64,000 nucleotides of DNA from Artemia franciscana. Taxonomy: Eukaryota > Arthropoda > Branchiopoda > Anostraca > Artemiidae. The notes under the pieces were generated by a model, which had not been told where the DNA came from, searched no databases, and was given only the letters and a program-made list of their open reading frames with translations. Positions 17,201 to 20,200 of this stretch are shown piece after piece. Within the stretch, counting starts at the first letter, position 1, and each line of letters starts with the position of its first letter. The stretch is taken from assembly GCF_032884065.1 (NCBI RefSeq), contig NC_088863.1, positions 41,820,880-41,884,879 on the forward strand, read 5' to 3'. Made by a program: the position numbers and the translations under genes.

Positions 17201-20200
17201 CCCATCTATAGATTTTGCCAAAAATGAGATGAGACTCTGGACCACTTGCTAATAAATTACAGTGCTGCAGAGATAAATCCGAAGACAGTTATCTACAGCC
17301 ACTGGGAACATTCCAAGGTCTATGCATTATACCAACAGCACAATTTCTCGTGCAACTTGGTGACCAACAAACCCAGAGGAAGGTCTACTTGGCCCTCTTT
17401 GAGGTTCTATGATCTTACAGACTGCTAAAAATGTTTAGTGGGCTAAAATGTATTAGTGCCCTAAGGCCTTAATTTAAAACAAGACAACCTGCACCAAAAA
17501 GCAAGATATTTTAGCAGTGTTCATAATTTAAAATTCATCTAAAATAAGAAAAAATATTTTCGAAAAAATATAAAATTCAGGGAACTTAGGATCCCAAGTG
17601 GTCAGCCCCTTCCTGCTACTTCAGTTTTTGTTTTCACATTTATTTTTTTTTATTATTATTTTTTTTTTTTGCACATTTGATGGGCTAGCACTACTTTAAT
17701 TAAATAAAAAAAAAACAAGTTTTTTTTAAATGAAAGTAAGGAGCGACATTAAACTTAAAACGAACAGAAATTACTCCGTATACGAAAGGGGCTTTTCCTC
17801 CTCGACACCCCGCTCCTTGCGCTAAAGTTTTTTATTGTTTTAAAAAGTAGAGTTGCGAGAAAGAATCAAACTTTAGCGCAAGGAGCGGGGTGTCGAGGAG
17901 GAAAAGCCCCTTTCATATACGGAGTAATTTCTGTTTGTTTTAAGTTTTAATGTCGCTCCTTACTTTCATTTAAAAAAACTTGTTTTTTTTTATTTAATTT
18001 CTGAAAGTTTTTGAATTAATGCATGTCTGATTTTGGCTCTCCGTACATAAATTACTAAAATGAAATTTGCATATTAATTCTTTTTTTGGCTAAATGGCTT
18101 TCTCTTAGTTTTGATCAGACGATTTTGAGAAATAAGGGGTGGGGAAGGAGGTCTAGTTGCCTTCCAATTTTTCGGTTACTCAAAAAGGCAACTAGATCTT
18201 TTAATTTTTAACGAACGTTTTTATTAGTAAAAAAAACGTAACTTAAGAATTAACTTACGTAACAAACGTACATAAATTACGTAACTTACGTTACGTTTTA
18301 TCCCAATTCTTTAAGAATGACCCCTGAATCAGAAAGGCCGTAGAATAAATAGTTGAAATTATTTAAAAAATTTTTAGCATAAAGAGCGAAGTATTTATCT
18401 CCTCCTAAATACCTTGCTCTTTATGCTAAAGCATTTTTAGAACCCTTCATATGCGTAATAATCTCTGTTCGTTTTAAGTTTTGATGCTTCTCCTTACTTT
18501 CAATTGAAAAAATTTTTTCATGTTTATATTTTCATTGTTTTTTTTTTTAGTAATGCTACAAAGTCCTGCGCCCTTTTCATTGAATTTCTCTTCCCCCATG
18601 AAATACTCCTCCAAGGAAAGATCCTCCCATATAGCCCCATCCCCTGAGCCCCACACCCAAACCCAAAAAATCCCCCTGATAACATCAGTACACTTCCCAG
18701 TAACCATTACTGTATGTAAACATTGGTCAAAGTTTGTAACTTGCAGCCCCTCCCCCAGGTACTGTGGGGGGTAAGTCATCCCCAAAGACATAGTTATTAT
18801 GGTTTTCGACTATGCGGAACAAAATGGCTATCTCAAAATTTTGATCCGTTGACTTTGGGAAAAAAATGAGCGTGGGAGGGGGCCTAGGTGCCCTCCAATT
18901 TTTTTGGTCACTTAAAAAGGGCACTAGAACTTTTCATTTCCGTTAGAATGAGCCCTCTTGCAAAACTCTAGGACCACTTGGTCGATACGATGACCCCTGG
19001 GAAAAAAAAAAAAAAAAAAAAAAACAAAAACAAAAAAACAAATAAACACGCACCCGTGATTTGTCTTCTGGCAAAAAATACGAAATTCTACATTTTTGTA
19101 GATTGGACCTTGGAATTTTTTCTATAGGGTTCTCTGATACGCTGAATGCGATGGTGTAATTTTCGTTAAGATCCTATGACTTTTAGGGGGTGTTACCCCC
19201 TATTTTCCAAAATAAGGCAAATTTTCTCAGGCTCGTAACTTTTGATGACAAAGACTAAATTTGATGAAACTTAGATATTTAAAATCAGCATAAAAATCCG
19301 ATTCTTTTTATATATCTTTTAGTATCGAAATTCCGTTTTTTAGAGTTTCGTTTACTATTGAGCCGGGTCGCTCCTTACTACAGTTCGTTACCACGAACTG
19401 TTTGATAATAACAATATTAATAATATAACAATAAAAAAGGCAATAAAAGACTTCAGAGCCATTCAAAATATAAAGGAAACAGATTCTTGCATACAGACAA
19501 TAGGAAAATGTTACCTACTAAAACGTGACAAACCAAGGGAAAGCGTAGATTATTGGACAATGGGAAGGAGAGGGTGAAAATGTGAATGAATTATATTAGA
19601 AATTATGGCTTTTCGTCTGTTTTTTTGTTTCAGGAGATTAAATACTCCTTTTGACCAGTCTTGAGGAAAACTTCGCATTTTTAGAAGGAATCTTGACTAA
19701 GGATTGCTTTTCAAGGAATTGCAGTATACCCTCCAAAAAATGGAATGCAACTGTTCAGCAAATTTACAATTCTTACAAAAACCTATGCAATACACTTCTG
19801 TACTTGAGCATTTAACTATTTTTCTAACATTCTTGTTTAGGTTTAATGCATATTTCGTGTTAGTAATCGCTTTCTTTTCTGAATTTGGTTTTTAACAGTT
19901 TCAAAAGCTTTGGTTTTTATTTTCTTTATTAGACATTAATTATACATTCTTGTTTGAGGACAGCTTGATCAGCACTAAATTAATCAATACAAATTTCTCT
20001 TCCTACTCTTTTAATTGGTTGGTGAATTAAAGTATAATTTGAGATTTTTTGTATAATTTGAAAGACTGGTATAACCTACCTTTTGTCTAGCAAGACATGA
20101 TTTAGTAAAAACTGACTGTTCATATTAACAATTGTTCAATAAGTTTATTAATGATTATTGCAAGATAAAAATATGATTAATAGAGCAAAATAAGCATTTT

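Follow-up and report, generated by a model that had tools for sequence, protein, structure and literature searches.

Inverted repeats stand at both ends of Foldback-type elements, and the terminal hairpins of parvoviruses are palindromes that occur in two loop orientations (flip and flop). Template switching between the arms of inverted repeats has been described as homogenizing the arms and inverting the spacers between them, and the yeast cases in the part of that study cited here have arms of about 7–16 nt and spacer inversions of 2–5 bp (PMC8604942). Among the template-switch patterns presented in another study, at least in the sections used here, are multiple compensatory changes and loop inversions, each enriched over simulation; compensatory change combined with loop inversion accounts for 6 cases, which are not enriched, and the largest pattern is 59 bp (PMC8794818). 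Small inversions of chloroplast stem-loops, in which the loops between inverted repeats flip recurrently, form a further precedent, and the same source, in its relevant part, does not tie bird microinversion hotspots to stem-loops (PMC3123225).

The hairpin considered here can be compared with each of these systems. The likeness to template switching, as characterized in the portions of PMC8604942 and PMC8794818 just mentioned, consists of arms that have been made identical, an inverted loop and recurrence on a tree. The scale is different, with arms of about 130 nt instead of the 7–16 nt or so of the yeast cases and inverted spacers of 43 or 92 nt instead of 2–5 bp, and, unlike the template-switching cases, the hairpin forms one end of a mobile element. 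The chloroplast inversions affect organelle loci, whereas the present case is a repeated nuclear element. As in the Foldback-type elements Tetris, Galileo and Tm1, insofar as the accounts drawn upon extend, long inverted repeats are found within mobile DNA, but here both arms sit at one end. The parvovirus palindrome offers a possible analogy, i.e., a terminal palindrome with two loop orientations, but no viral gene was recognized and the long palindrome is present at one end only. Each effect is already known elsewhere; here, both are seen in the terminal hairpin of a mobile element whose second, internal hairpin is mostly without them.

A 1.7-kb element with a hairpin at its 5′ end

The window, i.e., the whole 64-kb stretch of DNA that was analyzed, has a G+C content of 35% by base counts; for Artemia franciscana, the cited part of PMC11492255 gives 34.7–34.9% G+C and a Helitron fraction of 8.81%. 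Its content is eukaryotic, with three stop-to-stop frames of the NatA auxiliary subunit family and one reverse transcriptase identified by Pfam among the 8 of 23 listed frames that were scanned. The NAA15-like (NatA auxiliary subunit) exons are located at 40385–59496 on the minus strand, and the element copies denoted E3, E4, and E8 below lie between the matching frames; the reverse transcriptase remnant (RVT_1) is at 36089–36709, also on the minus strand.

Self-comparison of the window shows that the hairpins of family A are not free-standing and belong to an element of about 1.7 kb. In the 5′ to 3′ direction, this element consists of hairpin A (arms of about 130 nt and a loop of 43 nt), a flank of about 280 nt, an internal hairpin B, about 0.87 kb of further sequence and the 3′ end CAGTTCGTTACCACGAACTGTTTGAT. 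The 5′ end of the element coincides with hairpin A, within several nt, in E1, E2, E3, and E5. Insertion of a free-standing hairpin module in either direction is unsupported, hairpin A meeting the body at the same junction in E1, E2, E4, E5, and E6.

The full-length copy E1 (17698–19406, plus strand; copy 3 of the earlier note) ends in CAGTTCGTTACCACGAACTGTTTGAT. Its hairpin A (17698–17999) comprises a left arm at 17698–17827, a loop at 17828–17870, which defines orientation 1, and a right arm at 17871–17999, with a computed DNA fold of −142.7 kcal/mol (z −27.4). E2 (61162–62866, minus strand; formerly copy 10) contains hairpin A at 62570–62866 with the loop at 62697–62739, again in orientation 1, and the internally deleted E5 (60406–61107, plus strand; formerly copy 9) contains it at 60406–60706 with the loop at 60535–60577 in orientation 2, i.e., inverted. 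The limits of these three hairpins, and of a B-type hairpin at 14145–14350 discussed below, come from a gapped self-comparison. E3 (44525–46112, plus strand) retains the left arm of hairpin A, the loop and the inner right arm being deleted. The left arm of E4 (55811–57039, minus strand) is truncated at 57039, and its loop is in orientation 2. E6 (63348–64000, plus strand) runs past the window end and has the loop at 63404–63446 in orientation 1; its left arm begins at GAAAGTAAGG and is without the inner part. E7 (11592–12702, minus strand) is truncated at the 5′ side and retains hairpin B, hairpin A being absent, and the 5′ end of E8 (from 42034, plus strand) is formed by a B-type hairpin with both arms. 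Two half hairpins (54197–54422 and 57399–57592) are bodyless, hence their orientation cannot be set. Comparisons of hairpin A cover five to six usable copies in this single window.

Several other repeats were observed. The fragments at 16397–17023, 43206–43731, and 50314–50638 match only the 3′ part of the element. The copies E5 and E2 lie tail to tail, with about 54 nt between their 3′ ends (61072–61188), and one of these ends is an enlarged palindrome. A separate hairpin family occupies 26899–27760 as two adjacent similar units, one of which (27344–27618) has inverted arms of 119 nt and a loop of 37 nt; family A queries gave no match to this region.

Judged by its terminal features, the element resembles Helitron2/HINE and is a candidate member of this class. 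The inverted repeat AGTAAGGAGCGAC is sub-terminal and asymmetric, of 13 nt in E1 and E2 and 10 nt in E3, and lies 27 nt from the 3′ end and 32–37 nt inside the 5′ end, i.e., is not strictly terminal there. The 3′ hairpin CAGTTCGT-TACC-ACGAACTG is followed by TTTGAT in E1 and E2 and has close variants in E3 and E7. In E1, E2, E3, and E5, the longest match between a copy's own left and right flanks is 4–6 nt (with the 5′ end uncertain by several nt), no longer than the longest match to the flank of another copy. A sub-terminal inverted repeat, a hairpin at the 5′ end, another, short one close to the 3′ end and more than one 5′-type end per element are traits shared with Helitron2, Helentron and HINE in the part of PMC5148889 cited here, where multiple 5′ termini are reported for Helitron2/HINE; a lack of target site duplication, another trait of theirs, may be common to both. 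Further marks of Helitron2/HINE are insertion between T and T or in T-rich sites and a Rep-helicase protein encoded by an autonomous partner. The differences are the 5′ hairpin arms of a few nt in those elements, according to the same part of that source, against about 130 nt here, the placement of the 5′ copy of the inverted repeat inside the end and the lack of a visible Rep or helicase, with no Rep-helicase detected by Pfam in the 8 scanned frames of the 23 listed in the window. The copies in the window show no coding capacity for the 1.7-kb element and no long hairpin matching A at its 3′ end. DNA pattern scans of viral contigs and genome contigs, from which records of the window's own genome were possibly left out, returned 0 matches.

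Arm agreement and loop orientation in hairpin A

According to the earlier note, the arms of family A hairpins agree with each other better than with those of other copies, as exemplified by five motifs quoted from both arms. Each of these motifs is indeed found once forward and once as the reverse complement within its copy (17804/17876, 60497/60605, 62657/62767, 62672/62754, and 14174/14308), and the general claim is borne out, with E6 (off-partner) and E8 (marginal) as exceptions. For each pair of copies, we counted the sites at which the four arms split two versus two. Over the 15 pairs from six copies, 93 such sites unite the arms within a copy, 0 unite them by position and 0 are crossed; without the remote copy E8, the counts are 42/0/0 (10 pairs). 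The true left-right pairing ranks 1st of 120 for E1, E2, E4, E5, and E8, and 2nd of 720 once E6 is added.

From GAAAGTAAGG inward, the arms within a copy are 0.979 identical in E1 and E2, 0.969 in E5, and 0.917 in E4, and the best match of the left arm in the right arm of another copy is 0.927 for E1, 0.887 for E2, 0.959 for E5, and 0.883 for E4. Over the whole, unedited arms, with the A/T tract included, within-copy agreement is 122/128 (E1), 116/126 (E2), 125/129 (E5), and 55/61 (E4). The left arm of E6 (56 nt) is matched better by the right arms of E2 and E5 (0.964) than by its own (0.945), and the arms of E8, which are weakly homogenized, are barely closest to each other (0.804 vs. 0.760–0.794). 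The arm tree pairs the two arms of E1, E2, and E8 with support of 96–99 and those of E5 with support of 54; the arms of E4 are unpaired. We also simulated the flank tree without arm exchange for E1, E2, and E5 under six settings, with 1,000 runs each. The observed values for these copies are quartets of 28/0/0 and 7 arm differences in 291, compared with simulated means (scale 1, root 0) of 0.76/5.14/0.79 for the quartets and 41.4 for the arm differences; under each of the six settings, the observed quartet or arm-difference values were attained in 0 of the 1,000 runs.

The inner arm of hairpin A changes fast, in both arms, as is seen when E1 and E2 are compared. Their bodies are sisters and the closest among the A copies (21 of 266 sites differ beside the hairpin). 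Between 17752–17999 and 62644–62866, 11–12 of 40 sites differ in the inner arms and 1–2 of 56 in the outer arms, and the inner-arm divergence matches that of any pair of core A copies. Given this divergence between sister bodies, it may be that elements also swap hairpins with one another or that the hairpins evolve in bursts.

Five A copies retain the 43-nt loop, and their loops are homologous, which implies inheritance of the hairpin together with its refreshing. The possibility raised earlier that the palindrome is re-formed at each amplification is weakened by this homology, which likewise disfavors a de novo palindrome per insertion. With the bodies co-oriented, the loop is inverted in two of the five copies (E4 and E5, as against E1, E2, and E6). 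The six pairwise comparisons between these groups score 20 to 37 when inverted and 1.5 to 5 the same way, with the largest of 500 shuffles at 6.5 to 11; for example, E5 and E6 score 35.5 inverted and 4.5 the same way, with 7.5 as the top of 500 shuffles. Comparison of the 43-nt loop family with the 92-nt one yielded nothing useful. Loop inversion is the expected trace of arm exchange across the loop and is independent of the base counts in the arms. On the body tree, (E1,E2),E4,(E5,(E3,E6)) with bootstraps of 81–100, the loop orientations require at least two inversions, but for a 3:2 split on a five-copy tree two changes are also needed by 8 of 10 random placements, so that the misfit between orientation and body tree is weak evidence.

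The internal hairpin and putative scars of fold-back copying

Hairpin B is found in E3 at 44984–45245 (plus strand) and at about 62003–62283, 56255–56518, and 12391–12668 on the minus strand in E2, E4, and E7, respectively. Its arms are about 56 nt long and 0.79–0.86 identical in these four copies, and the loop is 81 nt in E3 and E4. Quartets among the four are 0 within copy, 18 by position and 0 crossed, i.e., the B arms evolve by position in E2, E3, E4, and E7, so homogenization is not general. The left arms of B read TTACACTAAA in six copies (E2 to E7), as do 0 of the 7 right arms compared, and the B loop, as read from the alignment, has a single orientation in E1, E2, E3, E4, E6, and E7. 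Besides their position, the two hairpins are unlike in the length and identity of their arms and in the length of their loops, and B is therefore a confounded control.

The exception among B-type hairpins is the one at 14145–14350 (plus strand), which combines matched arms with an inverted loop. It had been described, at 14163–14340, as a variant copy of family A in which both arms carry the same motif. The agreement of its arms stands (46 of 54 sites); its membership in family A does not, since its matches to 44984–45189 and 42096–42317 identify it as a copy of the internal hairpin B of the element, with a piece of the A flank upstream. Its 92-nt loop is inverted relative to that of the E8 hairpin (42048–42378, plus strand), which also has a 92-nt loop and is followed by the same downstream body as hairpin B; the two loops score 30.5 inverted and 7.0 the same way, with the largest shuffle at 9.5. 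Paired with each of E2, E3, E4, and E7, the 14145–14350 hairpin gives 3–4 within-copy sites and none by position, and once it and E8 are added, the B-type quartets become 22/22/5.

Possible traces of fold-back copying are seen at other places in the element family. The 3′ end of E5 is a palindrome with 16-nt arms (61072–61107), whereas its counterparts in E1 and E2 have 8-nt arms. A mini-hairpin within the right arm of B, common to E2 (62076–62153, minus strand), E1 (18364–18439), and E7 (12461–12538), can be read from its sequence as an inverted copy, i.e., a putative scar of fold-back copying. An inverted copy of TCGCTCCTTAC comes after the 3′-terminal sequence of the element found at 43.7 kb. 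Taken together, these three cases suggest that fold-back copying occurred more than once in the family.

How the arms may be kept alike

We propose, with a probability of roughly two in three, that arm-to-arm copying in a folded strand, i.e., template switching between inverted repeats, explains hairpin A. Under this scenario, single-stranded DNA of the element would fold at palindrome A, and a polymerase would then copy one arm using the other as the template. Copying confined to one arm would yield identical arms, and copying across the loop from the complementary strand would invert the loop as well; recurrent events of this kind could keep the arms matched in each copy while the copies drift apart. 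Arm-to-arm copying had been suggested in the earlier note and is now supported by the 93:0:0 quartets, the simulation and the inversion of loops between copies; the position-specific evolution of B in four copies and the putative fold-back scars also count in favor of template switching. Two marks of template switching are found, namely, arms homogenized within a copy (weakly in E8 and E6) and recurrent spacer inversion, and the copies are too diverged for the switch points of single events to be identified. We infer that the agent is template switching and that A is affected by virtue of its long, near-identical arms and short loop, and perhaps of its terminal position. Against this explanation, the B-type quartets of 22/22/5 are not a clean opposite of those of A, E8 is little homogenized, and the left arm of E6 is off-partner; a 43-nt loop with 130-nt arms exceeds the scales given in the cited parts of PMC8604942 and PMC8794818, and a near-identical pattern is predicted by gene conversion with crossover.

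The latter is the nearest rival to template switching, although on balance an improbable one. Once the element is inserted in a chromosome, break repair or cruciform resolution could lead to gene conversion and crossing over involving both arms of the hairpin. The outcome would be the same arm and loop pattern, with conversion homogenizing the arms and the crossover inverting the loop. Arm conversion in the long palindromes of the X and Y chromosomes, cited in the part of PMC6649704 used here, provides a precedent. The fold-back scars are not explained by gene conversion itself. Moreover, next to the loop the arms match exactly over no more than 44 nt (44 in E1, 26 in E2 and E5, and 10 in E4), which is short for ordinary homologous recombination. 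The same exact stretches, being below ordinary read length, render an assembly or polishing artifact, with the arms made alike and the loop placed backwards, unlikely; such an artifact has very little weight in our assessment, even though inverted repeats are hard to assemble and the assembly sequence alone was examined, given also that about 4 to 14% of the sites in the arms differ between the core copies and that hairpin B on the same contig is free of the effect in four copies. The least credible of the alternatives is selection to keep a transcribed hairpin base-paired, with compensatory changes and no arm copying. It would fit the very stable fold (computed for DNA), but leaves the loop inversion unexplained, and hairpin A shows neither position-specific sites nor a wobble bias, the arm mismatches in E1, E2, E4, E5, and E6 comprising 5 of the G-T type (plus strand), 3 of the opposite type and 7 transversions.

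The boldest reading is that the hairpin is refreshed and flipped in the element's own replication, with a single-stranded intermediate undergoing hairpin transfer. It overlaps with template switching, from which the timing and manner of the copying set it apart, and since it is in part a case of arm copying, the weights we attach to the readings overlap too; we regard it as doubtful, to about the same degree as gene conversion. It is favored by A being terminal and by B being quiet in four copies: A forms the 5′ end, within several nt, in the four copies named above, the arms of B are unhomogenized in E2, E3, E4, and E7, and its loop, read from the alignment, keeps one orientation in six copies. 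The truncated left arms of E4 and E6 and, as weak evidence, the 3-to-2 loop orientations that do not track the body tree point the same way. By contrast, the hairpin at 14145–14350, although of the internal type, has its loop inverted and its arms matched, the 8 of 23 listed frames that were scanned contain no Rep or helicase domain, and the 3′ end has no matching long hairpin. The fuller version, in which a folded 5′ end replicates the element and transposition copies the palindrome from one arm and flips it, leaving the internal hairpin largely exempt, appears a little more doubtful still. We found no open-licence literature on flip/flop hairpin transfer at terminal palindromes of transposons, and, by titles and the starts of abstracts, none of that literature was judged to be on the subject of loop orientation in transposable elements.

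Arm homogenization and loop inversion are usually seen as single events, and a many-copy dispersed repeat would make them a replicated natural experiment, with the second hairpin of the same element as an internal comparison and loop orientation as a yes/no marker that can be scored per copy by long reads. Such a repeat would also make clear how transposon ends can carry long palindromes that remain near-perfect without each of their bases being under selection. If hairpin transfer proves true, this would be a eukaryotic transposon with parvovirus-like flip/flop end replication.
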